From NCBI GenBank assembly GCA_026874595.1, contig CM049307.1, positions 53,071,870 to 53,135,869 of the forward strand: a stretch of 64,000 nt of DNA. Direction: 5' to 3'. Source of the DNA: Sipunculus nudus. Taxonomy: Eukaryota; Annelida; Sipuncula; Golfingiida; Sipunculidae. A model generated the notes under the pieces. The model was not told where the DNA came from, did not search any database, and saw only the letters and a list, made by a program, of their open reading frames with translations. This document shows, piece by piece, positions 6,373 to 64,000 of this stretch (the first letter of the stretch is position 1; every line of letters starts with the position of its first letter). Made by a program: the position numbers and the translations under genes.

Positions 6373-7737
6373 CTAGATGTGTCGGAACGACACGAATGCC
6401 CCCGCCTTGGGCAAATTAGAAACATTTGTAAAATTTGGAAAAATTTTTAAGTTCAGGAGGTGTCGTATGGTCAAAAGTAGGTCAACAAGGGCAAAATGCA
6501 AACTCAATCTGTAACGGGTCATTATCAAGCAACACACCAAAAATCATGCCAGTATATGCAGGCATTGTGAAAAAAAGTCCATACATGTGCATTTTCCATA
6601 AAAATTTCTGTCTTTCATGAAATTTTCTATGTTTAGGAGCCCTAAAACAATCAAAAGTAGGTCAACCGGGATGAAATGCAAACTCGATCTGTAACTGTCA
6701 TTATTTACCCACACAAAAAAAATCAGGGTGGTATCTGCAGGCTTTGAGGAAAAAAAGTCAGTATATATGCATTTGTTATGAAAATTTATATTTTCATGAA
6801 ACTTTCTATGTTCAGGAGCAGTCAAATGGTCAAAAGTAGGTCAACTGAGACAAAACAAGAACTCGATCTGTAACTGGTCATTATCTGCCTACACACCAAA
6901 AATCAGGCCTGTATCTGCAGGAACTGCGAAAAAAAGTCCATACATGTGCACCTTTTTATGAAATTTTCTATGTAAGGGCACCGTCAAACGGTCAAAAATA
7001 GGTCAACTGGGACAAAACGTGAACTTGATCTGTAACTGGTCATTATGTGCCCACACACTAAAAATCAGGCCAATATCTGCAGGTATTGTGAAGAAAAGTC
7101 TGTACAAGTGTATTTGTCATGAAAATATATATTTTACATGAAATTTTCTATGTTCAGGAGCCGTAAAAAACAGTCAAAAGTAGGTCAACCGGGACGAAAT
7201 GCGAACTCCATCTGTAACTACTCAATATCTGCCGACACACCAAAAATCAGGCCAATATCTGCAGGCATTGCGAAAAAAAGTCCGTACATGTGTATTTGTC
7301 ATGAAATTTCATATTTTTCATGAAATTTTCTATGTTCAGGAGCCGTAAAACGGTCAAAAGTATGTCAACCAGGATGAAACGCGAACTCGATCTGTAACTG
7401 GTCTATATCTGCTCACACACCAAAAATCAGGCCAATATCTGCAGGCATTGCGAAAAAAAGTCCGTACATGTGTATCTGTCATGAATATTTCTATTTTTCA
7501 TGAAATTTTCTATGTTCAGGAGCCGTAAAACGGTCAAAAGTAGGTCAACCAGGACGAAACGCGAAATCGATCTGTAACTGGTCTATATCTGCTCACACAC
7601 CAAAAATCAGGCCAATATCTGCAGGCATTGCGAAAAAAAAGTCCGTACAACTGTTTGATTTCGGAATGACGGAAGGACGGAATGACGGACATGGGTAAAA
7701 CTATATGCCCCGGCCACTTTGTGGCGGGGGCATAAAA
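6373..7737 (-). mobile_element. B1: Helitron2-like non-autonomous element with ~180-bp tandem core
   Basis: The left end reads CTAG (6373) and then a perfect hairpin, GTGTCG-GAA-CGACAC (6379-6393), followed by ATGCCCCCGCC (6396-6406). The right end carries the inverted copy GGCGGGGGCAT (7723-7733) followed by an A-run. The core is tandem units; two late copies are exactly 180 bp apart (same motif at 7338 and 7518). Read on the minus strand this gives a terminal inverted repeat at the 5' end and an internal copy plus hairpin plus CTAG at the 3' end, the plan of asymmetrical-TIR rolling-circle elements. There is no Rep/helicase ORF, so it is non-autonomous. Assignment to the superfamily is inference. 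Confidence 0.75.
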
Positions 7738-8278
7738 ATACATGTATACTGATAATCTGGTGTATTACTATTACGCATGGGAGAAAATACTATGAGAAGC
7801 TGCTGTATTTGATTTTATGCCGTTCTGTTCGACTGATGTGTAGCGATCCTTTAAGCTCACCGCACACAGGACAAATTGAGCTTATATGTCATGGCGATGC
7901 TGCGTCTGTTCGTAATTTTCAAAATGCTTCTACTTAATTTCTTGAAGGATTTCGATTCTATTTGTTTCATAAGATAGGCCAAGGCTATAGCTACAATCTG
8001 TACCTTAGACGATAGTTAACAGATAAAGTTTTGCGTTCGTGTATATGTCGGTGAGAGTCTATCCTGCAGTATACTAGCTTTGACGGATCTGTCCAAATAC
8101 ATAAAGGCAAATGTTCCCTATGTAGCGATTAGACAGCAAGTACCCCCTACATACTATCATTACTACAGACGTTAAGACTCCACTTTGACTATAATTATTG
8201 CGGAACGATCGGTATATGACAAAAGCGTGGGTGCTAACTGTGAGAAAATTAAATATTAGGCAATAAAAAAAGAGGTAA
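7738..8278. other. no gene or repeat recognised
   Basis: Unique-looking intergenic sequence between element B1 and the MITE at 8279. Only short ORFs occur, without domains. Confidence 0.5.
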
Positions 8279-8723
8279 GGTTCTCAGAAACCGCGTGCGT
8301 CAATTTTAACCAGACGCATCAAAAATTTTAATTTTGATTTTCAATGGAACCTTACCAATTTAGAGCTTAAGTCGCTCGGACATTTCTTTCAAGAAGATAA
8401 AATAATACAATTTGATTTGTTATGTAGTGCTTTTACTTGTTTAGCAAAACAATTCTGTTATTAATATACTTTTTCCCTGATCATATGACATATTTATCGA
8501 AATTTACAAAACAAGGTAAAAAAGAAAAAAACAAGGCCTACAGGCCTAATGCGAACCTGTGCAATGAGATTACACCAGGTATAATGCTTCAATGCTGGAC
8601 CATTACTTTTCAAGAACATGTGTAACATGTATATGAACAATGCAAGTACTAAACACTCAGAACAAGAAACAATTAAACAAACATCACTGCTGCAGTTCTG
8701 GCATGGGTGCACACAACAGAAAT

Positions 8724-11271
8724 CTAGAATATTGGTAGTCAACAAGCCACTACGTATATCCGCCAAAATCAGAGTAGGAAAGGTGAAGTGAGGCATGGAT
8801 TGAGTGGCAAGGGGAAATAGAGTGAGGTGTGTTGCATAATTGCCTGTATGTCTGCAGCCGAAATGTGTATGAAGGTTGCGCCACCTACCACAAAATCGAG
8901 GAAGCTGTCCAAGATATATAAACATGCAAAATTTTAGGCAGATGAGTCAAACCACTACTGAGATATGAGTGATCTTAGCCCACAGCAGAAAAACAGATGG
9001 ACTCTGTGCAAAAATGGTGGCAGGTGACGCCACCAATTTTGTGTATGATTAAGAGCTATGTGAGATCTATACACATGCAAATTTTCAGGGGGATATGTCA
9101 AACCAGTCCTGAGATATAAGCCTGAATGTCTGCAGCGTATACATAAATGTAGGTAGCGCCACCTGCCACAAATTCAGAAAGCTATTAAAGATGTATAATC
9201 CTGCAAAATTTAAGGCAGAAATGTCAAACCACTGCCGAGATATGAGTGATTTTATGCCACGGCAAACAGACGGATGCTGTGCAAAAATGATTGCAGGTGG
9301 CACCACCAGTTTTCCGTATGTTTAAGAGCTATTTGAGATCTATAAATATGCAAAATTTTGGCCCAATCGGTCAAATGGTTCCTAAGATATGAGCTGGGAT
9401 GTATGCAGCATAAATGAATGTAGGTGGCGCCACCTGTCTTAAAACAAGAAAGCTGTCAATGATGTATAAACCTGCAAAATTTCAGGTGGATAAGTCAAAC
9501 AACTGCCAAGATACGAGTGATTTTATCCCAAGGCAGCTGAACAGATGGACGCTGTGCAAAAATGGTTGCAGATGGCGCCACCAGTTTTGCGTATGATAAA
9601 GAGCTATGGGAGATCTATAGACATGCAAAATATTTGCTCAATCGGTCGTATGGTTCCTGAGATATGAGCTTGGAATTCTGCAGCGTAAATTTGAATGTAG
9701 GTGGCGCCATCTGTCATAAAATCAAGAAAGCTGTCAAGGATGAATAAACCTGCAAAATATCAGGTGGAAAAGTCAAACCACTGCCGAGATATGAGTGATT
9801 TTATCCCAAAGCAGATGAACAGATATGCAAAAATGGTTGCAGGTGGCACCACCAGTTTTGCGTATGATAAGGAGCTATGGGAGATCTACACACATGCAAA
9901 TTTTCAGGGGGATATGTCAAACCAGTCCTGAGATATAAGCCTGAATGTCTGCAGCGTATACATAAATGTAGGTAGCGCCACCTGCCACAAATTCAGAAAG
10001 CTATTAAAGATGTATAATCCTGCAAAATTTAAGGCAGAAATGTCAAACCACTGCCGAGATATGAGTGATTTTATGCCACGGCAAACAGACGGATGCTGTG
10101 CAAAAATGATTGCAGGTGGCACCACCAGTTTTCCGTATGTTTAAGAGCTATTTGAGATCTATAAATATGCAAAATTTTGGCCCAATCGGTCAAATGGTTC
10201 CTAAGATATGAGCTGGGATGTATGCAGCATAAATGAATGTAGGTGGCGCCACCTGTCTTAAAACAAGAAAGCTGTCAATGATGTATAAACCTGCAAAATT
10301 TCAGGTGGATAAGTCAAACAACTGCCAAGATACGAGTGATTTTATCCCAAGGCAGCTGAACAGATGGACGCTGTGCAAAAATGGTTGCAGATGGCGCCAC
10401 CAGTTTTGCGTATGATAAAGAGCTATGGGAGATCTATAGACATGCAAAATATTTGCTCAATCGGTCGTATGGTTCCTGAGATATGAGCTTGGAATTCTGC
10501 AGCGTAAATTTGAATGTAGGTGGCGCCATCTGTCATAAAATCAAGAAAGCTGTCAAGGATGAATAAACCTGCAAAATATCAGGTGGAAAAGTCAAACCAC
10601 TGCCGAGATATGAGTGATTTTATCCCAAAGCAGATGAACAGATATGCAAAAATGGTTGCAGGTGGCACCACCAGTTTTGCGTATGATAAGGAGCTATGGG
10701 AGATCTACACACATGCAAAATTTTGGCCCAACTGGTCAAACGGTTCCCGAGTTTTGAGCTTGGGTGTCTGCAGCTTAAATGTGAATGTAGGTGGCGCCAC
10801 CTGTCATAAAATCAAAAAGGCTGTCCAGGATGTATACACATGCAAAATTTAAGGTGGATAAGTCCAACCAATGCAGAGATATGAGTGATTTCATCTCAAG
10901 GCAGATGAACAGATGGACGCTGTGCAAAAATGGTTGCAGGTGGCGCCACCATTTTTAGTATATGTTATAAAGCTTTTCCAGGGCTACATTTGTACAAAAA
11001 CCTTAAGCCTTATCAGTCACACGTTTCCCGAGATATGAGGGTTTATGTGTGGAAACAGACGCACAAATGGACGCTGGGCAGAGAGGAAAGGTCAGAGGTC
11101 AATCAAAAATGAGGGCGCAGCAGTTCACATTTGACCGATCATAATTCCGAATTTTAAAAATTCTCCCCAGTGGTTATGGAGGAGTTCTCCAGAAACCAAT
11201 GAGGCGATGGCGGCAGCGTCTGCGTCCGACTGAATACATAGTATCCGCAAAACTTTGTTTTGCCGGATACA
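8724..11271 (-). mobile_element. C1: Helitron2-like element with tandem GGTGGCGCCACC core
   Basis: It starts CTAG (8724) with a degenerate GTAGTC hairpin and a TATCCGCC motif. It ends with GTATCCGC...GCCGGATAC (11241-11270), a ~30-nt inverted end. The interior is tandem units of about 270-280 bp, each with two palindromic GGTGGCGCCACC-type boxes. It interrupts A1: the sequence either side of it is continuous in copies A2 (about 12930-12960) and A3 (about 32430-32470). Confidence 0.7.
9083..10720. repeat. 819-bp segment duplicated head to tail
   Basis: Positions 9083-9901 and 9902-10720 appear identical by eye: the same ORFs recur at an offset of 819. Flanking units of the same array are clearly more diverged, so this is a very recent duplication or an assembly collapse/expansion artefact. 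Confidence 0.8.
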
Positions 11272-11689
11272 TTGATTGTAGCTGGCACCACCGGTCTTAT
11301 ATACAACGAAGAGATATATACATATGCCCAATGTCAGACTGATATGTCAAACCCCTCCTGTGAAATAAGCAGGGACATACACTGTGCAAAAATTATTGTA
11401 GGTGGCGCCACCAGTCTTGTACACTATAAAGCTACCCTATATGTATAAACATACCCAATTTTTAGGCTGATGTATTATATTCCTCTGTAGAAATAAGCAG
11501 GCACATACACTGCATAAATCAATGTAGGTGGCACCACCTGTCTTATTAATGAGAATACCATCAAAGACGACTAGACAGGTATCAGTCCAATACATCAAAC
11601 TTCCCCAGAGTTTGATGCGCTGGGCTGACAAGGCTAAGGTGAGTAAGGCAGTTGCCCCCGAGTGACCTGTGACAAATTGCTGCCTCAAG

Positions 11690-11870
11690 CTACTGCACTG
11701 CGTGAACTCTTGACCTGCACCTGGCTAGACTGAGTGAATTTTTTACCTGTACCTGGCTGCACTGAGTGAACTCTTGACCTGCACCTGGCTAGACTGAGTA
11801 AACTTTTGACCTCTACCTGGCTGCACTGAGTGAACTCTTGACCTGTTGCATAATCTGACACAGTTGGCAG
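11690..11870. repeat. ~35-bp tandem repeat 'tgaactcttgacctg' of family A
   Basis: The phrase 'actgagtgaactcttgacct' and variants recur about every 35 bases. Homologous blocks lie at about 13230-13450, 32880-33140 and 59170-59410, so this is part of the A-family interior. Confidence 0.7.
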
Positions 11871-12767
11871 TCTGCCAAAGCTATAAATAGATTCAGGCTG
11901 AACTTTGGTGCCAAATATGATACAGTGAGCAGTCTGCCAAAGCTATAAATAGAATGCAGCTACTGCACTGAGTGAACTCTTGATCTATACCTGGCTGCAC
12001 ATTTTCCAATCCTGGCACTGTGCCAAAACTATTTATAGAGCTGACATCATTTTGGCTAATGGCCAATATCAAGGCACTGGCAATCTGCCAATGGTAAACA
12101 CAGTGCTGCCCTCTGTACACAAAAGTGGTCCCTAATTGAAATAACTTTGAAATTTATTTTCCTAATACAAAATGCTTTTCAGCTGACTTTTTATAAAAAA
12201 AGAAATCAGGAATATATGTAAAATTATTACGGATGCATACTGAATGCAAAATTAAAATACAGATATATATAATTGATGGCAAAATCTTGAATTAAGTTGA
12301 GTAGGGATACCAATAATTTATAATCCACATTCAGTTGTCTTTATATAGCCACAGAGAGCTGAATATCAATGATTGTAACATTGCCTGGTATGATAAATAA
12401 CTTAAATCATAAATCTGAATTTTTTAAAAGCTTTTTCCTCAATATTAACCAAATATAACCTGAAATCTAAATGTCTAGTGGCATGATGTAATAGATGCTG
12501 ATTAACTGGTGCCAGGCTAGATGTAACATCATCACACAACTAACATATATGGTAAAATGACTCAATTCAATCTCCATAATTAAGCCAAAAATCATTCATG
12601 TGGAACCATTTATGACAATTATTATAAGAATTATTGTAGGGATTATTCTTGTAAAATATTTAACAAACTGGCTTCAGTGGCATCAGTCGAAAAATGTTTC
12701 GCAAGTTTATAACTCATATAGGAAGATACAGCAAACTGGCTAAGTTCAGCTTCCCGTAACTCATCAA

Positions 12768-14934
12768 CAAGGCCTACAGGCCTAATGCGAACCTGTGCAA
12801 ATGGATATACACCTGGTATAACGCTTCAATGCTGAACCACTACTTTTCATATATAAGAACAATGCAAGTACTAAACATTTTGAACAAGAAACAATACACA
12901 AACATCACTGCTGAAATTCTAGCATGGGTGCACACAACACAAAAATTATTGTAGGTGGCACCACCAGTTTTGTATACGACAAAGCTATTTGACATGTATA
13001 AATATGCCCAATTTAAGGCTGATATATCAAATTCCTCCATAGAATTAAGCAGGCACATACACTTTGCAAAAGTCATTGTAGATGGCGACACCTGTCTTGT
13101 GAACGAGAAAGCCATTAAAGACACATAGACAGGTCAGAATATCAGGCCTTGAGTCTGATGCACCGGGCTGACCAGGCTTTGGTGAGAAAGGCTGTTGCCG
13201 AGAGTGTACTGTGACAAATTACTGGCTCAGTCTACTGCACTGAGTGAACTCTTGACTTGCACCTGGCTAGACTGAGTGAACTTTTGACCTGTACTTGGCT
13301 GTACTGAATGAACATGAGAAGATCACATGATACTCATGAGGTGATCACATGCTACCCATGAAATGATCACATGCTGCCCATGAGGTGATCACATGCCTTG
13401 TGCTTGGCTGCACTCATTGAACTCTTGGCCTAAATCTGGCTGCACTGAATGAACTCTTGATCTGTTGCCAAATCTGAAACAGTTGGCAGTTTCTCAACCT
13501 ATTCAAGAAACATACACAATCTTGGCCTGTTATGTAACTCTGCTAAAATTTATCCAACACAAACCATTTGAACAAACTTGAGAAGGCTCGCCTCTGGGAT
13601 CATTTCTGTAAAATATTGAACAATTTGGCTGGACTCTTTACAAGAAGAAGAAGTTTTTATCAGCTTTTTCCCTGTAAAATCTAAGTAAATGCAGATAGCA
13701 AAAATAAGCTGAATCCATCAACATTTGATATGTGACTGATAATTGCATAAAATTTGGGGATGGTAGCTCCTGCTATTCCTGAGAAATTATGAATAATGTA
13801 CAGATGATATGTAATATCATAAATCTACATTTTTTAAAAGCTTTTAAAAAACATTCTTGTCAATATTTTCCATAGATATTCTAAAATCTAAATGTCTAGA
13901 GGCATGATGTAATGGATGCTGATTAAACTTGCCATAACTCAGCCAAAGTCACTGAACTGAGACCATTTGAACAAACTTGAATTATCAACATCTAAGGATA
14001 ATTAATGTGTGAGATTTAAGAATTTGGCCCAGTGGTTTTTGAGAAGAAGATTTTTGTAGCCACTTAGCTTACACGGGCTGTTATGGCACATGACTAAATT
14101 CAGCTTCCCATAACTCAGCCAAAAGTCACTGAACTGAGACCATTTGAACAAACTTGAATTATCAACATCTAAGGATAATTAATGTGTGAGATTTAAGAAT
14201 TTGGCAAATTGGTTTTTGAGAAGATTTTTGTAGCTACTTAGCTAAAATGGGCTATTATGGCATATGACTTAATTCAGCTTCCCATAACTTAGCCAAAAGT
14301 CACTGAACTGAGACCATTTGAACAATCTTAAGAACGCACTACCCTAGGAGCATTTCTGTGCGATATTAAACAATTAGGCCATTTCGTTTCAGAGAAGAAG
14401 TTATTTGTAGCTGTCAGTATGATACGGGCACTGATGACCCCCGTACAAAAAAGGCTGATGCAGATGGTGCCGCCAATACCTAAATTTCAGATATGACTCA
14501 TGTGACCAACATTGGCATAAAATTTGGTGATGATAGCTCAAGCCATTTCTGAGATTGTAATTTTAGTATGCTTTTTCGGACAGATGACTAAGTTCAACTT
14601 CCTGTAACTCGGCCAAAAATCACCAAACTCAAACCATTCGAACAAACTTGAGAGAGATTGTTCCAGGGATCATTTTTGTGAAATATTGGACAATTTGGCT
14701 GAACAGTTTCGGAAAAGAAGATTTTTAAATGTTTTTTAGATTTTTCCCTATAAAATCTAAGAAAATGCAGTTAGCCATAAAATAAGCGAAATCCAATAGA
14801 GTTTTTCAGATGCCTAATATTTTGCATAAAAATTCGTTATGCTAATTCTTGCCGTTTCAAGATAGTATGGGTTAACGTACAGACGACGGACAACGGACGC
14901 CGGAACACCATCGCATAAGCTCACAGGTTCGCTA
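12768..14934 (-). mobile_element. A2: complete family-A element nested in A1
   Basis: It begins with CAAG (12768) plus the AGGCCT-AC-AGGCCT hairpin and GCGAACCTGTG. It ends with CACAGGTTCGC (14922-14932) and TAAAA. At 2.17 kb it is the cleanest full-length copy here. The target is an A-run: the empty site 'gccaaaaagcactgaac' is visible at about 61906-61922, and A2 sits inside its As. Confidence 0.8.
13321..13400. repeat. 22-bp tandem repeat (GATCACATG units) in A2
   Basis: GATCACATG-type words start at 13321, 13343, 13365 and 13387, exactly 22 bases apart. A degenerate homologous block occurs at about 33295-33395. Confidence 0.85.
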
Positions 14935-15786
14935 AAAAAGCACTGAACCAAAACCATTTGAACAAACTTGAATTATCAACATCTGAGGATAATTAATGTG
15001 TGAGATTTAAGAATTTGGCCCAGTGGTTTTTGAGTAGAAGATCTTTGTAGCCACTGAGCTAAAATGGGCTGTTATGGGATATGACTAAATTCAGCTTCCC
15101 ATAACTTAGCCAAAAGTCACTGAACTGAGACCATTTGAACAAACTTCAGAAAGCACTACCCTAGGATCATTTTTGTGCAATATTAAATATTTTGGCCATA
15201 TGGTTTCAGAGAAGAAGTTTTTTGTAGCCCTCTGTGTGATACAGTCACTAATGACACCATACAAAAAAGGCCGATGCAGGTGGCGCCACCAATGCCTTAA
15301 TTTCAGATATGACCTATTTGACCAACATTGGCATAAAATTTGGTGATGTTAGCTCCAGCCGTTTCTGAGATTTAAATTTTTAATATGCTTTTTTGCACAG
15401 TTAACAAAGTTCAACCTCCTGTAACTCGGCCAAAAATCTCCAAACTGGAACCATTCGAACAAACTTTAGAAAAATTGTTCCAGGGATCATTCCTGTAAAA
15501 TATTGGACAATTTGGCTGGACAGTTTCAGAGAAGAAGATTATTAATTTAAAGCGTTTTCAGCTTTTTCCCTATAAAATGCAGTAAGAAAAAAAATTTTTT
15601 TTAAAACCTATAGTTTTTTGGATGACTGATTATTTGCAAAAAATTTGGTGATGCTAGCCGTTTTTTAGATAGCTATGGTTAACGTACAGACGACGCACGA
15701 CACACCACGGACGCCGCCGCACAAGCTCACAGGTTCGCTAAAAATCGCCCTCGCGCACTGATTTCTAAAAGAAGTGTCTGAGAACC

Positions 15787-17071: not shown

Positions 17072-20000
17072 CTGAAACAGCAAGATAAATGGACTACTCA
17101 TCAGGGTTGGGCAAAACCTGGGTTTTAAGTATAAAACCCAGCCCAGTGGGTTTTACAGGTTTAACCCGGGTAAACCCGGGTTTTATGGGTTTTATGGCCA
17201 ATATAGTCTCAAATGGCAACTGACTGATCTCTAAATTTCTTGTACCAGCTTAGGAAATACTGGGATCAGTATGTTTCTTTGCTTTAAAATGTATATAACT
17301 ATATAAATATATATAATATATAACTGATATTGGTGATATATAGCAGTTATAATGATAATTTTAAACTAGATGTGTCGGAACAACACGAATGCCCCCGCCT
17401 TGGGCAAATTAGAAACATTTGTAAAATTTGGAAAATTTTTTAAGTTCAGGAGGTGTTGTATGGTCAAAAGTAGGTCAACAAGGGCAAAATGCAAACTCGA
17501 TCTGTTACGGGTCATTATCAAGCAACACACCAAAAATCATGGGAGTATATGCAGGCATTGTGAAAAAAGTCCATACATGTGCATTTTCCATAAGAATCTG
17601 TGTCTTTCATGAAATTTTCTATGTTTAGGAGCCTTAAAACAATCAAAAGTAGATCAACCGGGATGAAACACAAACTCGATCTGTAACTGTCATTATCTGC
17701 CCACACAAAAAAAATCAGGGTGGTATCTGCAGGCAATGAGGAAAAAAAGTCAGTACATATGCATTTGTTATGAAAATTTATATTTTTCATGAAACTTTCT
17801 ATGTTAAGGAGCAGTCAAATGGTCAAAAATAGGTCAACTGGGACAAAACGTGAACTTGATCTATAACTGGTCATTATCTGCCCACACACCAAATATCAGG
17901 CCAATTTCTGCAGGTATTGTGAAGAAAAGTCTGTACAAGTGTATTTGTCATGAAAATATATATTTTACATGAAATTTCTATGTTCAGGAGCCGTAAAACA
18001 GTCAAAAGTAGGTCAACCGGGAAGAAATGCGAACTCCATCTGTAACTAGTCAATATCTGCCGACACACCAAAAATCAGGCCAATATCTGCAGGCATTGCG
18101 AAAAAAAGTCTGTACATGTGTATTTGTCATGAAATTTCATATTTTTCATGAAATTTTCTATGTTCAGGAGCCGTAAAACGGTCAAAACTAGGTCAACTGA
18201 GATGAAACGCGAACTCAATCTGTAACTATTCTATATCTGCCCACACACCAAAAATTAGGCCAATATCTGCAGGCATTGCGAAAAAAATTCTGTACATGTG
18301 TATCTGTCATGAATATTTCTATTTATCATTAAAATTTTCTAAGTTTAGGAGCCGTAAAACGGTCAAAAGTATGTCAACCGAGACAAAACGCGAACTCCAT
18401 CTGTAACTGGTCTATATCTGCCCACACACCAAAAATCAGACCAATATCTGCAGGCACTGCGAAAAAAAAGTCCGTACATGTGTATCTGTCATGAATATTT
18501 CTATTTTTCATGAAAATTTCTAAGTTTAGGAGCCGTAAAACGGTCAAAAGTAGGTCAACCAGGACAAAACGCGAACTCGATCTGTAACTGGTCTATATCT
18601 GTCCACACACCAAAAATCAGGCCAATATCTGCAGGCACTGCAAAAAAAGTCCGTACATGTGTTTTGTCATGAAATTTCATATTTTTCATGAAATTTTCTA
18701 TGTTTAGGAGCAGTAGGTCAAAAGTAGGTCAACAAGGACGAAACGCGAACTCGATCTGTAACTGGTCTATATCTGCTCACACACCAAAAATCAGGCCAAT
18801 ATCTGCAGGCATTGCGAAAAAAAGTCCGTACAACTGTTTGATTTCGGAATGACGGAAGGACGGAATGACGGACATGGGTAAAACTATATGCCCCAGCCAC
18901 TTTGTGGCAGGGGCATAAAAATCAGGAGTCTTTAAAATGGAGTATAAACCTACCGTGCTATGTAACTCCGATTATTTCAATCATATTTCTATCTGAATCT
19001 GTCATTTGTAATAATTTAATGATTTTAAAAAAATAATTTCCTTTGAATCAATGAAAGATTGAAAGTGGATGGATTACTTAATTTGGTATGTACACACACT
19101 GGCTAACTGGTCGACACAAGATGGTTACTGGTTGCAAAGTGTCAACTGATTAGCAGTACATGTATAAGATACCACACAGGTGAAGCCACAGTGACACCTC
19201 ACTGGGACTTTGCTGCAAAAGCAATGGCATCCACTGGGCACTGACACTTTGGGAGTTATTGTTATTACAAGAATATGACAGGTTGTAGTGGAGTACAGCC
19301 TAGGTAATCAAGAGTTACAAAGGATTTCATTATGGTATGATTCTGCTATATATATCCAGGGCATGTGAGAGATCTTTAGTTCTAGGTCTTTTCAGTCATA
19401 CTCATAGTGATCTCTGACCCATGAAACCTAAACTTATTGCATGGACAATCACTGTAGTTTTCCTCTTTATTTGATTATATGCATTTTATGCAGCCATTCT
19501 TATATTGAACAGAATGCTTCTAGAAAAGCCCTAATCATATTGCCCATTAAAAAATGCATGTGGGTTTTAAGGCTTATTGCCCGCCCAGGTAATAAGGTGT
19601 ATTACCCGCCAAGGTTTACCCACCCCGGTATTACCCGCCCAACCCTGCTACTCATACATTAATTATATATCCTAAAAACCTTTAAAACATATAAATTCTA
19701 GTTTCATATTTGATATTTGAATAATTTCAAGTCTTATTACAGTGGGTAACACTTCAAAGAATATTGAATATTAATACAACCTAAATAGCAAAATAAATGG
19801 ACTAAAAATATATTCTACAAGCATTTATTCCTGTAAATTGAAGCTTAATCCATATTAAATATTTATATAATTAATATAATAATTGTAATTATATACTGAT
19901 ATTATTACAGTAAAGACATAAATGAAACATTTAATACTAACCTTCAGGAAATATTATAAGCAAAGCAAATGTAATATTTGACTTGGTTTTACAATACCAA

Positions 20001-23311: not shown

Positions 23312-23327
23312 CCCCCCCCCCCCCCCC
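23312..23327. repeat. poly-C run of 16
   Basis: An uninterrupted run of 16 C in C5, just before the small element at 23341. Confidence 0.85.
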
Positions 23328-23340
23328 ATGAACAATAATA

Positions 23341-23754
23341 TGCTGCATTCGTTACCATTGGAATAGATGGTACGTACGAGTTTCCCAGTGGGAAACCTGT
23401 TCGACATGTGACCCAAGTGGAACATACCACTGGGAAACTGGGATTTGACAGAGCAAGTCAATCTGTTCCACTTGGCAACCTTCACCTTTATTCACTGCTT
23501 TTCGAGAAGTAGGGAGCAAATAAATAAACCAATAATGGCAATATCTGACTGGTTTACATAAAAGTTTTAAATGACAAATAAAGTTGAACCAATGTAACAT
23601 GAAACATATTTTATTAATTAGTTTCTCTTCAGTAACTATCACAAAATAAACATCCGGTCAGTGGGTCTTTTGTTGGGTACCGAAAGTTTGCAAGTCGTAC
23701 GAACAAGCTGCCATCTGGTACATACCATCTGTACGAGCGTTAACAAACGCAGCA
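23341..23754. mobile_element. small TIR element (MITE) inside C5
   Basis: The left end TGCTGCATTCGTTA and the inverted right end (TGCTGCGTTTGTTA read on the minus strand) form imperfect terminal repeats; 'gatggtacgtacgag' and its near complement follow inside. It separates two parts of C5. The target duplication is not clear. Confidence 0.5.
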
Positions 23755-42697: not shown

Positions 42698-45010
<2,313 letters not shown>

Positions 45011-45029
45011 GAGATATTTATTTTTATTA

Positions 45030-52068
<7,039 letters not shown>

Positions 52069-53112: not shown

Positions 53113-53234
53113 TGACATGTATTATATACATGAAACAGTATTCTTCATCAGTTTAGGGTACTAATTACGCTGGTAATATGGTTAATATATTTAATATGGT
53201 TACTAAAAGCAGCATTCAACATCTGATTTTTAAA

Positions 53235-54150
53235 CAAGGGACCTATGGGTCACAACGCTCAGCCGAATTTTGTAAAATTTTAGCAAATGCAAAATTTACT
53301 TATTTCTTTTGTTTTTTTTAATAAATTAACACTTGAAAGGCTAAAAGGAAATGGCCCCGCTATTTGGTGATAAGCAAATACAGGTAACCCAAAAATCACA
53401 GAGGCATGGGTAAAGTGAGGCACTGAATGTTCCTGACAAGAAAAAACTCAAAATTTGTGGCTTCACAGATGCCAAAGTATCAAAAGACAGATGGATGAAA
53501 CTACAGAAAAATATTGGCAGATGACAGGCCATAACAAGTATTTAAAGAGTACACAGAAGGAAGTGGAAACTGTTGAGTGGCACCACTGGTCTTAGGTATG
53601 AGCTAAATATTGCAAGACATGTAAAATTTCTGGCCCATATGTCAAAGCACTCCTGAATTAAGTCCATCGACATGTTCCATTAAAACAGATTAAGCAATGT
53701 GAAAATAATAGTACTAGGTGGCACCACCAGTCATATGTATGCGATATAGCAATAAAAGACGTATATTTCCCTGTGCCTGAAAAAGTACACAGATTGAAGC
53801 CACATGAAAACAGTTTAATGGCACAAAAGGTCTTATGCAAGAGCTAAATAATCCCGGACGTGTGAAATTTCAGGCAAAAACGTCATATCACTCAAGCACC
53901 ACCCATTTTGTCTATCACAAAATTATCAAGGATGGATAAATTTGAAAATTTCAGACTGATATATGGTGAAACTCCTCATATAAATGCAATTTTCAACAAA
54001 AACATACCTACAGATGGATACAAGATGAAACTGATTGTAGGTGTCCCATGCAGTTTGCATATAAGATAAACCATTCCAAAATCTATGGAAATGCAAATTT
54101 TTGGGTGAATACATAAACCACTCCTGAGAAAAGGGCAATATATTCAAAGA
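53235..54150 (-). mobile_element. E4: left part of a family-E element
   Basis: CAAG (53235), GACCTATGGGTC and GCTCAGCCGA are a slightly decayed E left end. It continues into GGTGGCACCACC-box sequence and is cut by E5 at 54151. Confidence 0.55.
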
Positions 54151-57100
54151 CAAGGGACCCATGGTCATGACTTTTTTTAGCTCAGCTGACTATAAGTCAT
54201 CTGAGCTATAGTCATGGTCCATTGTCCGTCGTCCGTCCGTCTGTCTGTCCGTCCATCCGTCTGGATGTCCGTCCGTAAGACTGGCACGTTTCGACACTGT
54301 TGGACCTACGAATCTGAATTTCGGCATACAGTTAGATGTCCCCATAATCTCCTACCATGCCAAAAATTGGGTCAATAGGACTTCGTTCCTTTGAGATATT
54401 AAGGAAAAACCTCAATTTTTTATTAGAAATCTATTTTCACACTTCAGGACTGCCTAATATCAAAACCACTCATCCAGTTTTCTTCATATTTACCATAAAT
54501 ATTCCTCTATATAGTTCCTATGTACATGCCAGATATTAAGTCAGTATTTTATAATTTAAAAAAGTTATGGGCCCAAACATAATGGACTTTGTAAAAAAAT
54601 CAGGATGATATTTGGTCACTTAAGACCAAAAGTGTTAAAGGTAGGGACTTTTTTCCAGTAATACAACTTTAATTAATCAAAATTTAATTGCATACCAAAA
54701 ATTAGATCAAAATTTGTTAAATTTTTTTAAATATTGGCAAAAATATAAAATTGGTACCTTAAATTTTGCCCAACTTTGGCCATGGCACGTTTTTTTCCTG
54801 TAAGTACTGTGGATTTAATTTTCACACCATGTATACATAAGGATTTAATCTGTTAAAATCTGAAATTTGAAAATAAAAGCTGCAAAATTAGGCTAGTTAT
54901 TGAATTTTTTTTGGAGGCTCTTGTTGTATTCCCTTACATTGTCAAGCAGTCCACTTTGATGACTGTAGGTCATTCAGTGCACATCTCTATGCTCCCCAGG
55001 CTGTTGACATTATTTTAGATGTCCCCAAAATCTCCTACCATACCGAAAATTGGGTCATTAGGACTTTGTTCCTTCGAGATATTAAGGAAAAAAAACTCCG
55101 TTTTCCATAAAAAAAAGCCATTGTTACACTTCAAGGCTGCCTAATATCAAAACCACTGATCTGTTTTTGATCGTATTTAGTATTCACATTCTTTTATACA
55201 TTTTCTATTAACATACCAAAAATTAGGTCAGTATTGGGTATTATTTTGAAGTTATGGGCCAAAACATAATGCAATTTTTTAAAAAATCAGGAAATATATT
55301 TACTCACCTAACATGAGAATTGCTGAACCTAGAGACTTTTTTTCAGGAATATAACTTTATTTAATCAAGATTCAATTGTTTACCCAAAATTAGATCTGAA
55401 TTTTGCAAATTTTTCAAGTTATTAGCATAAATAAAAAATCAATACCTTAAATTTTGTCCAACTTTGGCACTGTTGATTTACAGTGTTGAAGTGTTGTTTA
55501 CATCTAGCCCACCTAGTAGTACAGCCTTCACTTGCATTATGTAACCCACCCCAGGCAGCTTACCTTGGCCCAGCTTGGCCACTACTAGCAGGCTTCCCCT
55601 CTGCCCTGCACTCATCCCCCCTCCAGCGGGTGCATAAACTAGATGAATGTTATTATTTTATTTTATTCTTGGACATGCTACATTTTAGATTTTGTATTGA
55701 ACCACCAGGGTTACAATGATTAAAGTGTACATTTAATTGTGTCCACAAAGTGGTGTATTGCTGTGAAAGTGTGGATGTTCATGAGATAAGTAATTCCTTA
55801 CTTCAGAGGAGTAAAAACTTCACCAGGTGTGAAACTGACTATTAATTCAAGTAATTAATTAAAACTGGGATAGTAATTAGCACAATGATATTGTTTGTCC
55901 CTCATTCAACCAACAGTGTGTATACTTTATTTGAAAAGATGTTTTATTTTATCAAATTTACTTTTATTTTATTTTGGTGAATAAAATTAAGCATGTCCTG
56001 AAAACTCCAATGTGGAGAATATTCTTGTAGATGCCATGTTGTGGCATTATTTTCTTTTAAAATTAGTTTAAACATTTATGATTTAAAAATAATAAAATAT
56101 ATGTGTATGCATAATATGACCCAATTTTTTTACTCTGTATATATAATGATTGCAACTTTTGCAACAATTCTAATATTTTAACTTATATTTTCAGGTTTTT
56201 TAATTAAGAATTTATAAACCTGTAAATAAAAAAATGATTCAGATAAAAACTTCTTAATGGAAAAAGTGGATCTGCTTAAAAAAATAGGATTATATATAAA
56301 CTTAAAAGCATTATTCTCTTGAAAGTGAAATTAAGGTATTAGTCCATTCTGTCCACTTGCCTGTCCATCTGTAAATTTTCGTATGCAACACAGTATCTCA
56401 AAACTTTTACTGTTTTTCTTCATGACAGTCTTGTCAGAGTATTAGTTTGCAATCATATATTTAGAACTTTACTATAACCAAGTAGGAGGGTCCCTTTCCT
56501 CTTAGCTTTTCATATTCTTATATAAATGAAAAACATTACAATAGAATATTTCTACATCCACCTTCGTGCTGCCCTCACTTTTCCCTTCTCCGAACCCCAT
56601 CCCAAAGTCAGCCTCAGTAAGCAAGAACAAGACGAATCAGATATATTCATACTTTAAAATTTGTATAACTATTCGTCCATAGGTACCTATGTACATGCCA
56701 GAAATTATGTCAATATTGTGTAATATGTAGACATAGTGGGCATCACAATAATGTACCTTGTCAAGACTAAAGAGATATTGTGTCATACAGTCACATATTC
56801 ATAAATCACTTCATCAGCATAGTTAATCATAACATCATATCTGTCAAATTGAATGCTTGCAGACTACCATACACTTTAGATCCTTCAACAAATAACCTTA
56901 TCATCATTCTACTACTGCTTATTACTGCTGTCATTGATTTCATATTTGCTCAAATATATCACAATTTTCAACCCCTCCTAAATAAATAAAAAATAAACCA
57001 CTTTATTTGACTCTATTAATCCATCAGTCAGGTAATTTCATTTATCATTTACTCACATATTACATAACATTCCTTCATAATAGCCCAACATGTATATGAT

Positions 57101-58158
57101 ATTCATAAGCTTTATCGACTCGATATAGTATCACAGTGGAGAAACATTTATAGTCCAATCACGATCAGCTGAGCGCCGTGACCCATGGGTCCCTTGTTTT
57201 AATTTTAGCCAATTATTTTGGTTTTTCATAGATATAAGCATTTGATAAGCTAAGAGGAAATTGCCCTGCTAAAACTGCAGACAGCCTGATCAAGCTCAAC
57301 TCATAGAGAGAGGGCTTGCCCTAGTGATGGGATTGCATAACATTATGCCAACAACTTGGGGGGGAATCATAGAGAGCTGCACTGAATGACCTACAGTGAC
57401 CAAAGTGGACTGCTTGACAATTTACGGGAATACAACAAGAGCCTCCAAAAAAAATCAATAACTAGCCTAATTTTGCAGCTTTTTTTTCAAATTTCAGATT
57501 TTAACAGATTAAATCCTTATGTGCACATGCTGTGAAAATTAAATCCACAGTACTTACAAGAAAAAAATGTGCCGTGGCCAAAGCTGGGCAAAATTTAAGG
57601 TACCAATTTTTTATTTTTGTTAATATTTTGAAAAATTTAAAAGATTTTGATCTAATTTTGGGTATACAATTCAATTTTGATTAATTAAAAATATATAACT
57701 GGAAAAAAAGTCTTTAGCTTTAACATGTTTTGTGTTAAGCGATCAAATATCTTTCCAGATTTTTTACAAAATGCATTATGTTTGAGCCAATAACTTTTTT
57801 AAATGACATAATACAGATCTTATTTCTGGCATGTACATAGGAACTATATAGAGGAATATTTATGGTAAATATGAGGAAAAACAGATGAGTGTTTTTGATA
57901 TTAGGCAGTCCTGAAGTGTGAAAATAGGTTTTCAATAAAAAATTGAGGTTTTTCCTTAATTTCTCATAGGAACGAAGTTGCAAAGACCCAGTTTTCAGCT
58001 TGGTAGGAGATCTTGGGGACATCGAACGTTATGCCAAATTTTGGATTCCTAGGTCCTACAGTTTCAAAACGTGCCACATCTACGGATGGACGGACATTCG
58101 GAAGGACTATGGACAATGCACCAGGACTATTGCTGAGATGACCTATAGTCAGCTGAGA
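54151..58158 (-). mobile_element. E5: family-E element split by the inverted copy E6
   Basis: The left end is CAAG (54151) and GGGACCCATGG. The right end is TATAGTCAGCTGAGATA (58145-58158). The sequence after E6 (57197 onward, 'gataagctaagaggaaattgcc') matches E4 interior at about 53330-53355, showing that it continues E5. Confidence 0.6.
54178..57196 (+). mobile_element. E6: 3.0-kb family-E element, plus orientation
   Basis: The start AGCTCAGCTGA (54179-54189), with the CTGAGCTATAG hairpin arm after it, follows a T-run. The end is TCAGCTGAGCG (about 57166-57176), GACCCATGGGTC and CTTG (57196), then TTTT. It is the exact mirror of E2. Near the start is a GTCCGTCC microsatellite stretch. This copy shows the canonical orientation best: T-run, terminal repeat, body, inverted repeat, hairpin, CTTG, T-run. 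Confidence 0.8.
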
Positions 58159-58161
58159 TAA

Positions 58162-58761
58162 CTAGAATACGGGAAGTCAACAAGCAATTACGTGTATCCG
58201 CCAAAATCAGAGTGGGACGGGTGAAGTGAGGCATGGATTGAGTGGCAAGGGGAAATAGAGTGAGGTGTGTTGCATAATAACCTGGATGTCTGCAGCCGAA
58301 ATGTATATGTAGGCTGCCACCTACCACAAAATCCAGAGAGCGGTCCAAGTTGTATACATACATTTTAGGCAGATAAGTCAAACCACTACTTGTATATGAG
58401 TGATTTTATTCCACAGCAGACAAACAGAAGGACGCTATGCAAAAATGGTGGCAGGTTGCGCCACAAATATTGTGTATGACTGAGAGCTATGTGAGATCTA
58501 TACACATACAAAATTTCCCGAGATATGTGGGTTTATGTGTGGAAACAGACGCACAAATGGACGCTGGGCAGAAAAAGGGTCAGAGGTCAACCAAAAATGA
58601 GGGCGCAGCAGTTCACATGTGCTATGAACATGATTCCTAATTTAAAAAAATTCTGCCCAGTGGTTACGGAGGAGTTCTCCAGAAACCTATGCAGCAGTGG
58701 CAGTGGCAGAAGTGTCCAACTGCAAACATAGTATCTGCAAAACTCTGATTTGGCGGATACA
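58162..58761 (-). mobile_element. C3: short family-C element
   Basis: CTAG (58162), a degenerate hairpin and GTGTATCCGCC mark the left end. GTATCTGC...GGCGGATAC (58731-58760) marks the right end. Only about 0.6 kb: the tandem core is reduced to about one unit. Confidence 0.7.
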
Positions 58762-59668
58762 ATGATTGTAGCTGTCTTGTATACAACAAAGAGATATATA
58801 CATATGCCCAATTTCAGACTGATATGTCAAACCCCTCCTGTGAAATAAGCAAGGACATACACTGTGCCAAAATTATTGCAGGTGGCACCACCAGTTTTGT
58901 ACACTATAAAGCTACCCGATATGTATAAACATGCCCAATTTTATGCTGATGTATCGAATTCTTCTGCAGAAATAAGCAGGCGCATACACTGCAAAAGTCA
59001 ATGTAGGTGGCACCACCTGTCTTGTAAATGAGAATACCATCAAAGTCGCAGAGACAGGTCAAAATATCAGGCCAATACATCAAACTTCCCCAGAGTTTGG
59101 TGCACTGGGCTGACGAGGCTTAGGTGAGTAAGGCAGTTGCCCCCGAGTGACCTGTGACAAATTGCTGCCTCAAGCTACTGCACAGAGTGAACTCTTGACC
59201 TGCACCTGGCTAGACTGAGTGAACTATTGACCTGTACCTGGCTGCACTGAGAGAATTCGACCTGACACAGTTTGCAGTCTGCCAAAGCTAAAAAATAGAT
59301 CCAGGCTGAAATTTGGTGCCAAATCTGATGCAGTGAGCAGTCTGCCAAAGCCATAAATAGAATGCAGCTACTGCACTGAGTGAACTCTTGACTTATACCT
59401 GGCGGCACTTCTTCCAATCCTGGCACTGTGCAAAAACTATTTATAGAGCTGACATCATCTTGGCTAATGGTCAACATCAAGGCATTGGCAGTCTGCCAAT
59501 GGTAAACCAAGTGCTGCCATCTGTACATAAAAGTGGTCCCTACTTGAACTTGAAATAACGTTGAAATTAATTTTCGTAATTCAAAATGCTTTTCAGCTGA
59601 CTTTTATAAAAAAGAAATTAGGAATACATGTAAAATTATTACAGATGCATACTGGATGCAAAATTAAA

Positions 59669-61435
59669 CTAGAATACGGGTAGTCGACAAGCGACTACGT
59701 GTATCCGCCTAAATCAGAGTGGAACGGGTGAAGTGAGGCATGGATTAAGTGGCAAGGGGAAATAGAGTGAAGTGTTGCATATTAGCATGTATGTCTGCAG
59801 CCAAATTGTGTATGAAGGTTGCCACCCCCCCCCCCCCCCACCACAAAATCCAGAGGGCCGTCCCAGTTGTATACATATGCAAAATTTAAGGCAGATAATT
59901 AAAACCACTACATGTACATGAGTGATTTTAGCCCGTGGCAGACAATCAGATGAACGCTGAGCAAAAATGGTTGCAGGTGACGGCACCAGTTTTGCATATG
60001 ATAAAGAGCTATGTGAGAACTATACACATGCAAAACTTTGGCCCAATCGGTCAAACGGTTCCCAAGATATGAGCTTGGAAGTCTGCTGCATAAACTAGAA
60101 TGCAGGTGGCTCCACCTGTCATAAAATCAAGAGAGCTGTCGGGGATGTATAAACCTGCAAAATTTTAGCCAGATATGTCAAACCACTGCCGAGATATGAG
60201 TGATTTTATCCCATGGCAGACAAACAGACAGGAGCTGTGCAAAAATGGCTGCAGGTGGCACCACCAGTTTTGCGTATGTTATAAAGCTCTCCAAGGGCTA
60301 CGTTTGCGCAAAAAAATTTCCCTGATCGGTCTAACGGTTCCCGAGATATGAGCTTGGATGTCTGCAGCGTAAACGTGAATGTAGGTGGCGCCACCTGTCA
60401 TAAAATCAGAAAAGCTATCCAGGATGTATACGCATGCCAAATTTCAGGTGAATTAGTCAAGTCACTGCAGAGATATGAGTGATTTTAACCCAAGGCAGAC
60501 AAACAGATGGACACTGTGCAAACATGGTTGCAGGTGGCGCCACCATTTTTTGTGTATGTTATAAAGCTCTCCAAGGGCTACATTTGTGCAAAAAAATTTT
60601 CCTGATCCGTCAAACGGTTCCCGAGATATGAGCTTGGATGTCTGCAGCGTAAACGTGAATGTAGGTGGCGCCACCTGTCACAAAATCAGAAAAGCTATCC
60701 AGGATATATACGCATGCCAAATTTCAGGTGAATTAGTCAAGTCACTGCAGAGATATGAGTGATTTTAACCCAAGGCAGACGAACAGATGGACAATGTGCA
60801 AACATGGTTGCAGGTGGCGCCACCATTTTTTGTGTATGTTATAAAGCTCTCCAAGGGCTACATTTGTGAAAAAAATTTTCCTGATCGGTCAAACGGTTCC
60901 CTAGATATGAGCTTGGATGTCTGCAGCGTAAACGTGAATGTAGGTGGCGCCACCTGTCACAAAATCAGAAAAGCCATCCAGGATGTATACGCATGCCAAA
61001 TTTCAGATGAATTTGTCATGTCACTGCAGAGATATGAGTGATTTTAACCTAAGGCAGATGAACAGATGGACACTGTGCAAACATGGTTGCAGGTGGCGCC
61101 ATCCTTTTTTGTGTATGTTATAAAGCTCTCCAAGGGCTACATTTGTGCAAAAAAATTTTCCTGATCCGTCAAACGGTTCCCGAGATATGTGGGTTTATGT
61201 GTGGAAACAGACGCACAAACGAACGCAGAGCGCAGAGGAAAGGTCAGAGGTCAAAACAAAATCGGGGCGCAGCAGTTCACATGTGACCCGAACATTATCC
61301 CGGGTTTCGTAAAATTCCGCCCAGCGGTTACGGAGGAGTTCTCCGGAAACCTACGCGGCGGCGGCAGCGGCGGCGGCGGCGGCGGCGTGCAGCTGAAAAC
61401 ATAGTATCCGCAAAACTCTGTTTTGGCGGATACAA
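59669..61435 (-). mobile_element. C4: family-C element nested in A4
   Basis: CTAG (59669), a perfect GTAGTCG-ACAAG-CGACTAC hairpin... (59680-59698) and GTGTATCCGCC mark the left end. GTATCCGC...GGCGGATAC (61404-61433) marks the right end. The A4 bases either side ('gcaaaattaaa' and 'attacagat') join as in A1 at about 12245-12262. Repeated ~275-bp units with GGTGGCGCCACC boxes fill it. Confidence 0.8.
61355..61387. repeat. (GGC)n microsatellite at the C4 end
   Basis: A run of GGC with one AGC interruption, in the conserved subterminal part of family C. The same place in C1 and C3 has shorter 'ggcggcagcg'/'agtggcagtgg' versions, so the repeat has expanded here. Confidence 0.85.
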
Positions 61436-62111
61436 TTACAGATGTACCATACTGATGGCAAATTCTTGAAATAAGTTGAGTAGGGATACCGATAGTTTAT
61501 AATCCATGTACAATTGTATTTATATAGCCACAGAGAGCTGAATATCCATGAATATCCCATTGCCTGGTGTGATGAATAACTTAAATTATAAATCTAATTT
61601 TTTAAACGCTTTAAAAAAAACTTTTTTTGTCAATATTAACCAAAGATAACCTGAACTCTAAATGTCTAGTGGCATGATGTAATAGATGCTGATAAACTGG
61701 TGCCAGGCTAGATGTAACAGCATCACACAGCTGACATATATGATAAAATGACTCAATTCAATCTCCAAAATTCAGCCAAAAATTATTCTTGTAAAATATT
61801 TAACAAACTGGCTTCAGTGGCATCAGTCAAAAATAGTTTTGCAAGTTTATAACCCATATATGAAGATACAGCAAACTGGCTAAGTTATGCTTCCTGTAAC
61901 TCAGCCAAAAAGCACTGAACCAAAACCATTTGAACCAACTTGAATTATCATCATCTGAGGATAATTAATGTGTGAGATTTAAGAAATTGGCCTAGTGGTT
62001 TTTGAGGAGAAGATCTGTGTAGCCACTGAACTAAAATGGGATGTTATGGCATATGACTAAATTCAGCTTCCCATAACTTAGCCAAAAGTCACTGAACAGA
62101 GACCATTTAAA

Positions 62112-63508
62112 CTAGATGACCTGAGGTCACGCGCTTGCCGGAAATGATGTAAAGTTAGTCAGATGAACGAGCAGTGTCAAAGTGAAAGAAAATAATCCAT
62201 AGTTTGTGAAGAAAGAACCAATATTAACAAAGTTCTAAAGAAAATAAGATTTTGATATATTTTGATCACCTTGACCTTGATCTTTAACTTATTTGAATAA
62301 TAAACATAGGGCTTCCAGATATCATCACGATATATGACAAGTGTAATTTACAAAACGATTCCTGCAAAACTGTGGCCAGTAGAATGCTACATGTGAGACG
62401 CAAGAACCAGGAAGCAGGCGAAATTGAGGACAACTGACAAACAGACAAACATACTGACCCAAGATTGAGAACAGATGACTTAATCATGTTATGAAGAAAC
62501 CTAAGAGGAAGATAATAAGCTATAATTTATGTAAATGAGGTTAATAGTTTTGGAGATATGGCCAAAAAATGATATGTTGTGCAAGTTTGAGTGCAGCGCC
62601 CCCTAGCGGCCAATTCTGGAAAATGAAAAATCGGTTTCGAGATATTAGTGTGAGACATAAGATGTAATAGTTTTAAAAAGATTCTTTCAAAACTGTGTCC
62701 TGTAGAATGCTATATGTGAGACGCAAGAACCGGCAAGCAAGCGGATTTGAGGACAACTAAGAAACAGACGGACACACAGACAAAGTGACAGAAGATTGAG
62801 ACCAGATGACTAAACGAATTCATGAAGAAGACTTAGTTGAAAAAAATAAACTATAGTTTTTGTAATTGAGGCTTATAATTTTGGTGATATTGCCGAAACA
62901 TGATAAGTTGGAGAGGTTTGCACCCAGCGCCCCCTAGCGGCCAAATTAAAAAAATGAAAAATTGGTTTCGAGATAATAGTGTAGGACTTAAGATATGCCA
63001 GTTTCAAAAAGATTCCTGCAAAACTGTGGCCTCCAGGGCAAGATTACTGAAATCTCGAAATATCTCGTTTGACGAGATATTATACGAGATATTGCGAGAC
63101 TCTTAATAGAATCTTGTAGTACTAGGTGAATGCTACTTGAAGCAAAAAACTAGACCTCTGTAGCTTTAAAACTGACAAATTTAGAAAAATATCAGCACTT
63201 TTCACCAAAAATGCGTTACCATGGTTACCACAAATTGAGTCAGCTACACACCAGAAAACAGGCCTTGGAATGACGATTAAAATGAGCTACTGTTGAAGTA
63301 GATATGACCAATATTAACACAGATATGAACAAAAAACCGTTTTGTGTACTTTTGATGACCTTGACCTTGACATTTGACCTATAATGCCCAAAAACAATAG
63401 GCCTCCAGGACTTTTGCTTGTCTACCAGCTGTATAAGTTTGAAAGCAATTGCTGGAAAATTGTGGCCTGTAGAGAGTACACAGACAGACAGACAGACAGA
63501 CAGACAAA
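62112..63508 (-). mobile_element. H1: family-H element
   Basis: CTAG (62112) and a TGACCT-G-AGGTCA hairpin (62118-62130), then 'cgcgcttgccgg', form a left end of the same type. The interior has repeated phrases with a 'gcgccccctagcgg' word (about 62591 and 62929) and GACAGACA microsatellite DNA at the right, where H2 begins. No inverted copy of the left motif is seen, so the right end may be lost. Confidence 0.55.
63356..63380 (-). promoter_or_regulatory. cluster of AGGTCA half-sites (nuclear-receptor-like) in H1
   Basis: TGACCTTGACCTTGACATTTGACC contains three AGGTCA-type half-sites on the minus strand; similar runs lie at 62271-62288 and 63664-63686. Direct repeats of AGGTCA are the known core of nuclear receptor sites. 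Here they are part of a repeat family, so function is not implied. Confidence 0.4.
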
Positions 63509-64000
63509 CTAGATGACCTGAGGTCACGCGCTTGCCGGAAATGATGTAAAGTTAGTCAGATGAACGAGCAGTGTCAAAGTGAAAGAAAATAATCCATAGT
63601 TTGTGAAGAAAGAACCAATATTAACAAAGTTCTAAAGAAAATAAGATTTTGATATATTTTGATCACCTTGACCTTGACCTTTGACTTATTTGAATAATAA
63701 TCATAGGACTTCCAGATATCATCACGATATATGACAAGTGTAATTTACAAAACGATTCCTGCAAAACTGTGGCCAGTAGAATGTTACATGTGAGACGCAA
63801 GAACCAGGAAGCAGGCGAAATTGAGGAAAACTGGCAAACAGACAAACATACTGACCCAATATTGAGAACAGATGACTTAATCATGTTATGAAGAAACCTA
63901 AGAGGAAGATAATAAGCAATAGATTATGTAAATGAGGTTAATAGTTTTGGAGATATGGCCAAAAAATGATATGTTGTGCAAGTTTGAGTGCACCGCCCCC
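63509..64000 (-). mobile_element. H2: second family-H element, runs off the window
   Basis: Its first ~490 bases match H1 almost base for base from CTAG (63509) on. It starts directly at the end of the GACA run of H1. Confidence 0.7.

Follow-up and report, generated by a model that had tools for sequence, protein, structure and literature searches.

The DNA analyzed here is a 64,000-nucleotide stretch of the Sipunculus nudus genome (1.43 Gb), located at 53.07 Mb of contig CM049307.1 (contig C2) and referred to below as the window. It contains copies of five families of non-autonomous mobile elements, designated A, B, C, E, and F, and a C2H2 zinc-finger array at 42710-52270 (minus strand), which is interrupted by an A-family element at 45282-50532. 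The element ends in the window were located by short-word BLAST; 33 ends were detected, of which 29 have one orientation (minus) and four the opposite one. At the start of another contig, C1, from which strand tracks were taken, the five families mostly insert on the same strand over distances ranging from tens of kilobases up to roughly one megabase.

Element families in the window

On the strand that carries the flanking T-runs (the T strand), the 5' end of families A, B, C, E, and F consists of a T-run followed by an asymmetric terminal inverted repeat (ATIR) of 10-14 nt. The 3' end consists of the reverse complement of the ATIR, a palindrome or hairpin, the tetranucleotide CTAG or CTTG, and a T-run. 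The ATIR motifs are private to each family and are the same as those listed in an earlier note on this DNA. In four of the five families, an inverted arm of the ATIR itself lies close to the 5' ATIR; this inverted structure is present in B, C, E, and F and is not found within 38 nt in A, whose first 38 nt contain no 5' hairpin (z 0.32 against shuffles). The body of several copies contains tandem repeats of 180 or 278 bp. The following copies were recognized in the window (T strand given as plus or minus):

6371..7738, minus: B-family element with central tandem repeats of about 180 bp (ends, repeats)
8530..15744, minus: A-family element, outer copy (ends; paralogous empty site at 31945-32146)
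8724..11271, minus: C-family element nested in the outer A (ends; empty sites at 12811-13100 and 32307-32603)
12766..14938, minus: A-family element nested in the outer A (ends; empty site at 61782-62060, with an A-run and no duplication)
17364..18921, minus: B-family element (ends)
22212..23866, plus: C-family element in the minority orientation (ends; 3' end diverged, 0.63 of consensus)
28093..29565, minus: F-family element (ends)
31258..31290, minus: E-family 3' end alone, with no 5' partner assigned (end match)
34174..40133, minus: F-family element holding an E that holds a B, all on one strand (ends probably paired as given)
34889..39351, minus: E-family element nested in the F (empty site represented by the uninterrupted neighboring repeat unit, 34597-34864, with an A-run)
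35543..37408, minus: B-family element nested in the E (ends)
45282..50532, minus: A-family element in the C2H2 zinc-finger array, enclosing a 3' end of C and repeats of the C type (ends)
53233..58161, minus: E-family element (ends probably paired as given)
54175..57198, plus: E-family element nested in the preceding E in the opposite orientation (ends)
58160..58762, minus: C-family element (ends)
59667..61435, minus: C-family element with repeats of about 279 bp (ends; empty site at 12109-12406)

The ends were compared with chance expectation. The B motif has 11 matches in the window with at most one mismatch (0.22 expected), and the A motif has six (0.48 expected). A strict scan of the window for end pairs gave 27 rows on both strands; 10 Markov shuffles, each scanned on one strand, yielded 0-4 rows per shuffle, but 13 of the 27 rows stem from the zinc-finger array. 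Analysis of the folding of the 3' palindromes showed that shuffled sequences folded as well in 8/200 cases for B, 16/200 for A, 4/200 for C, and 2/200 for F. E also has a 3' palindrome, whose folding does not surpass that of shuffled sequences (z 0.77; 156/200 as good).

Searches of the whole genome for exact 3' ends found 10,364 copies for E, 4,446 for C, 3,947 for A, and 3,066 for B, with totals near balance between the strands. Exact 5' hairpins numbered 28,672 for E and 2,971 for B, and F had 1,830 strand matches. The reversed-pattern control for each of these end counts gave zero or one match per strand. The excess of exact E 5' hairpins over exact E 3' ends may indicate that the 3' ends are more varied or that the 5' ends have been multiplied. 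In addition, five F 5' ends lie on one strand at positions 1407723-1418682 of contig C1 with a spacing of about 2.6-2.8 kb, possibly as a head-to-tail tandem array.

The end design that the earlier note had proposed as common to these families is borne out for A, B, C, E, and F by the ends, the chance tests, and the genome counts, except that A is without the 5' hairpin. The perfect inverted copy of the motif expected at the 3' end occurs in window copies of B, C, and E; in the two window copies of F, there are one and two base differences between the 5' and 3' ATIRs. The families had also been described as unrelated in sequence. This does not hold, since C and F have GGATACTATG in common downstream of the 5' hairpin and are thus not wholly unrelated.

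Insertion sites were identified by matching the joined flanks of window elements to uninterrupted paralogous copies. Such empty sites were obtained for copies of A, C, and E, and in them the sequence resumes across an A-run, which is a T-run on the element strand, as the earlier note had predicted. No target-site duplication of fixed length was seen at the four empty-site junctions inspected, and no empty site for B or F was found among the matches listed.

The end design, the T-run empty sites without duplication, and the presence of coding elements with E ends (see below) support the assignment of the five families to non-autonomous Helentrons (HINEs) of the Helentron/Helitron2 type, in agreement with the earlier note. 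A canonical Helitron1, with a 5'-TC start, a CTRR end, insertion between A and T, and no 5' hairpin, was ruled out by insertion into T-runs and by the 5' hairpins of four families.

Elements of this kind are well known; the families themselves are new. Like them, Drosophila DINE-1 and the mite HINE-Mo, in the account available from PMC4067079, have a palindromic 5' subterminal inverted repeat and, at the 3' end, its subterminal copy and a palindrome. The same account gives HINEs and Helentrons a T-rich target, no target-site duplication, and a RepHel protein with an endonuclease domain; neither the strand domains nor the hairpins' single interior defect, both described below, has a counterpart in the part of it that was available. 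The Cg_HINE elements of Crassostrea gigas likewise form many families with their own ends, satellite-like central repeats, and a 5' subterminal inverted repeat with a complementary inverted repeat, so that one end plan shared by many families with private sequences is already on record for oyster HINEs, according to the available sections of PMC7492417. In those sections the authors could relate no autonomous element to the oyster families, whereas the present E family has one. As for Helitron2, the description available in PMC3627910 likewise includes ATIRs, a 5' hairpin involving the 5' ATIR, and a 3' ATIR upstream of a hairpin.

RepHel elements and 5' hairpins

Elements coding for RepHel were searched for using the Helitron_like_N domain (PF14214), for which the scoring of 150 out of 195 candidates gave at least 143 genomic matches, counting fragments. 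Eight loci of 16 kb each were picked for their long reading frames and are not a random sample of the PF14214 matches. In three of them (c17, c5, and c7), an E 3' end follows the RepHel frame at a distance of about 0.9-1.4 kb. When upstream DNA was added, both E ends were found in c17 and c5, 14.9 and 16.1 kb apart, respectively. The homology between c17 and c5 (matches of more than 300 bases and 90%, with the 5' boundary examined separately) begins at TTTTTA before the 5' ATIR and stops at CTTGTTT, and the outer flanks differ. Thus, the E HINEs have in this genome a RepHel-coding partner with the same two ends. The earlier note had suggested a search for a Rep/helicase element with the ends of the repeat families; for E such an element exists, with both ends in c17 and c5 and the 3' end in c7, and for A, B, C, and F none was found among the eight loci. 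Strict end pairing within the eight 16-kb loci gave two rows, neither of them a credible end pair, because the elements are longer than that.

In c17, RepHel is encoded by a single frame (2,342 aa) in which Helitron_like_N, PIF1, and DUF6570 were recognized, along with a domain scoring as Herpes_teg_N. The match of this frame to Exo_endo_phos is sub-threshold (21.2 bits, cut-off 24.5); it is in this weak endonuclease match that the frame differs from Helitron2, which makes a Helentron likelier than a Helitron2 in the narrow sense. In c5 the RepHel frame is in pieces of 1,124 and 741 aa. Both of these autonomous E elements (L005/L006/L037 and L013/L014/L038) have a tandem pair of E 5' ends; for Fusarium Helitrons, the available text of PMC5148889 reports more than one 5' end. 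The two elements also share a nested C HINE, seemingly carried along with them.

A second RepHel lineage comprises four of the loci (c11a, c13a, c8, and c11b; pieces L001-L004, L011, L012, L015, and L016), with frames of up to 2,426 aa and with OTU and Exo_endo_phos above the cut-off. No recognized end was found in the 16 kb of these loci, beyond which the elements reach; no end was recognized in the DNA examined at the remaining locus, c13b.

As for the 5' hairpins, those of families B, C, E, and F each have one interior defect. The B hairpin consists of 7 bp, one mismatch, and 5 bp; the E hairpin of 6 bp, a mismatch, and 5 bp; the F hairpin of 8 bp, a mismatch, and 3 bp; and the C hairpin of 8 bp, one bulged base, and 5 bp, all with a loop of 3. 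The base at the defect was tallied by eye among the matches listed, F loci matching both strands being counted once. It is T in 96, C in two, and A in two of 100 E ends, and C in 96 and T in four of 100 B ends, with perfect pairing in none of either; at the 97 F loci it is G in 84, A in nine, and C in one, and pairing is perfect in three. B ends that open with a perfect arm do exist (68 strand matches, palindromes counted twice) and were left out of the strand analysis.

A single defect of this kind might let the HUH nuclease tell the two strands apart. According to the available part of PMC8266576, correcting the stem bulge or mismatches severely reduces the activity of TnpA-REP, an HUH protein related to the IS200/IS605 group; irregular features of the hairpin help it to distinguish the strands, and a second group reads perfect palindromes. 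In the proposal of Bao and Jurka (PMC3627910, in the text available), pairing of the 5' and 3' ATIRs destroys the 5' hairpin, which a defect in this hairpin would favor. The defect can also be plain inheritance.

Strand domains at the start of contig C1

Three of the results go beyond the earlier note and are new, namely, the partner of E, the hairpin defect of four families, and the strand domains of five families, of which the domains are the most worth following. The strand tracks were built from the matches listed and cover the first 2-28 Mb of contig C1, depending on the family. They include 77 of the 100 B 5' hairpin matches listed and 51 F matches, as far as 19-20 Mb. A single F locus, situated below 19 Mb, is a perfect palindrome with matches on both strands and was omitted from the strand counts. 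Close copies of one family on the same strand were merged, within 5 kb for the Viterbi domains and within 6 kb for the five-family test.

The insertion strand runs in long blocks, and the blocks of different families coincide. For pairs of copies from different families among A, B, C, and E, the same-strand fraction is 72/76 (0.947) at distances below 10 kb, 134/149 (0.899) at 10-30 kb, 355/479 (0.741) at 30-100 kb, and 419/583 (0.719) at 100-200 kb. It falls to 655/1108 (0.591) at 200-400 kb, 1674/2917 (0.574) at 0.4-1 Mb, and 0.515 at 1-2 Mb. Within-family fractions for the same four families are close to these values.

Rotation of the tracks against one another was used as a control. A and B agree in strand in 78/99 cases (none of 5000 rotations as high), A, B, and C at 10-100 kb in 220/294 (one of 5000), and A, B, C, and E in 362/442 (none of 5000). 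With all five families and a partner of another family 10-50 kb away, agreement is 318/385 (0.826), and 1000 rotated tracks gave a mean of 0.524 with a standard deviation of 0.045 and a maximum of 0.691. By family, it amounts to 64/74 for A, 64/79 for B, and 104/119 for E, and is lower in C (58/76) and F (28/37). At the start of contig C1, the insertion strand therefore goes with a chromosomal domain common to the five families.

The strongest block lies at the very beginning of the contig: over the first 1.15 Mb, 57 exact 3' ends belong to A, B, C, or E, and every one of them is minus; adding the 5' ends brings in one plus copy. A Viterbi segmentation of 0-2.26 Mb, made without F, divided the region into five domains, measuring 1.11 Mb, 242 kb, 42 kb, 83 kb, and 545 kb; the fifth is truncated at the limit of the region. 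The copies agreeing with their domain number 96/97, 15/17, 4/4, 6/6, and 19/23, respectively. The orientation of the ends in the window, 29 of 33 minus, agrees with strand domains. No strand domains of Helitrons were found in the literature searched, which included the available text of PMC5371812, PMC5876387, PMC9341512, and PMC12477816 and lay mostly outside subscription journals.

Possible cause of the strand domains

By analogy, the likeliest cause of the strand domains is the direction of the replication fork, since the scale of the domains and the chemistry of HUH nucleases fit it. In the general scheme known from the literature, carried over here to these families, the RepHel protein, with its HUH nuclease and PIF1-like helicase, would nick the T strand at the junction of ATIR and T-run. 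It would then replicate or peel off one strand, halting at the 3' ATIR, palindrome, and CTAG/CTTG, and the copy would be inserted between two Ts with no duplication of the target site. If the target is single-stranded during DNA replication, the strand would be chosen by the fork, and the T-strand insertion would record fork direction; the target strand would most simply be the lagging-strand template, as for IS200/IS605.

According to the available part of PMC5371812, the IS200/IS605 elements, which are moved by HUH nucleases, insert preferentially into the lagging-strand template and are oriented in accordance with replication. A strand-specific single-stranded target, replication-linked orientation, and imperfect hairpins read by an HUH nuclease are the features of IS200/IS605 and TnpA-REP (PMC5371812 and PMC8266576, in the portions available) to which we infer a likeness in the present families. 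These systems are bacterial and have no helicase, and the comparison concerns their working, not membership.

Taken jointly, the observations are probably best explained by HINEs of five families moved by RepHel, with an insertion strand set by the replication fork. The chances appear evenly balanced that the many thousands of Helentron copies, in at least five families, amount to a strand map of fork direction in the germ line, produced by an HUH transposon that inserts at forks, into T-runs of one template strand while these are single-stranded. If so, strand switches would mark origins and termini, and a map of germ-line replication would be available from the genome sequence by itself in animals where none can be measured. 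The idea of a single-stranded Helitron target at forks would also become testable in species that have both DINE-1/HINE copies and fork maps. Independently of this, the E partner opens the ends and the enzyme of one HINE family to joint study in one genome.

Several points weigh against the overall explanation given above. Strands were tracked on a single contig, and there over no more than its first 2-28 Mb; elsewhere the data come from the window and a few 10-kb pieces. Four contig-end pieces contain elements, and two of these (L017 and L022) have elements on both strands. No partner was found for four families, as the ends of A, B, C, and F bound none of the eight sampled RepHel loci and C occurs there only as a nested copy. 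The defect base of the 5' hairpin has no sign of selection: at the F loci listed, perfect pairing (3/97) stands beside 10 cases of other rare bases. Helitrons are HUH elements without duplications in the available text of the Helraiser study, and there the Helraiser circles had to be double-stranded as donors (PMC5876387), so we infer the single-strand step on the target side. No dispersed repeat other than Helentrons was usable as a control in the sampled loci: a tRNA-SINE pattern gave two matches, and no tRNA-like genes or box A/B candidates were found. Markers of gene strand were also sought, and none of the 100 zinc-finger linker matches listed and of all nine kinase-motif matches lies in 0-20 Mb of contig C1.

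A comparison of contig ends belongs with these points. Six left-end pieces hold four plus and four minus elements (ends paired by hand), and six right-end pieces hold one minus element. No TTAGGG run was found in eight contig ends of 200 bp each. In four of the six pieces taken 100-110 kb from right contig ends (L024, L025, L026, and L028), tandem repeat makes up at least half of the sequence (10,000, 5,837, 5,053, and 9,911 of 10,000 bases, respectively). With so few elements, no telomere repeats in the ends inspected, and so much tandem repeat in these four pieces, the comparison lent no support to a fork-related polarity.

Transcription could also produce strand domains, if Helentrons enter the exposed non-template strand or if selection removes one orientation within genes. 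The zinc-finger genes of the window and most of its elements are both on the minus strand, which fits transcription as well as replication and so tells against preferring the latter. This explanation nevertheless seems rather unlikely, as strand agreement lasts to 100-200 kb and the 1.1-Mb domain has 96/97 copies on one strand, which would exceed ordinary gene spacing; moreover, a G protein-coupled receptor frame on the plus strand at 3946-4977 lies 1.4 kb from the minus B element at 6371. Target composition, that is, more T-runs on one strand of each domain, is a very improbable cause. The elements do target T-runs, and a 6-kb sample of the strongest minus domain has 32 A-runs and 19 T-runs (4+), in the same direction as the elements, which again speaks against forks. 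However, AA and TT steps in this sample number 545 and 553, and in the window, outside the elements and the zinc-finger region, 239 T-runs and 228 A-runs (4+) accompany ends in a ratio of 29:4, so run density does not explain the bias there. An initial count of 364 T-runs to 264 A-runs included the zinc-finger arrays and was replaced by the former one. Composition skew of the window outside the elements is near zero overall.

Entry of new copies into older ones on their T-rich strand, by which clusters would come to share an orientation, would draw on the nesting common in the window and on the A-run excess of several minus elements on the plus strand (for example, 35 A-runs to 12 T-runs and 40 to 12). 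Such contagion is scarcely credible, since it would not easily account for agreement of 0.72-0.74 between copies separated by 30-200 kb, and since agreement was still 318/385 when only partners 10-50 kb away were used. A single RepHel serving all families through a shared structural code is compatible with any cause of the strand domains, and the same architecture and shared domains would suit it. The earlier note had proposed one helicase acting on varied ends; this is now improbable, as E ends alone were recognized at RepHel loci (three of eight, the other five being without a recognized end), A is without a 5' hairpin, and a second RepHel lineage exists.

A minor observation concerns the right end of the window, where direct repeats of 495 bp with 97.6% identity lie at 62109-62603 and 63506-64000, the second being cut by the window end. 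DNA related to these repeats occurs in pieces near contig ends (L021, L025, and L028).

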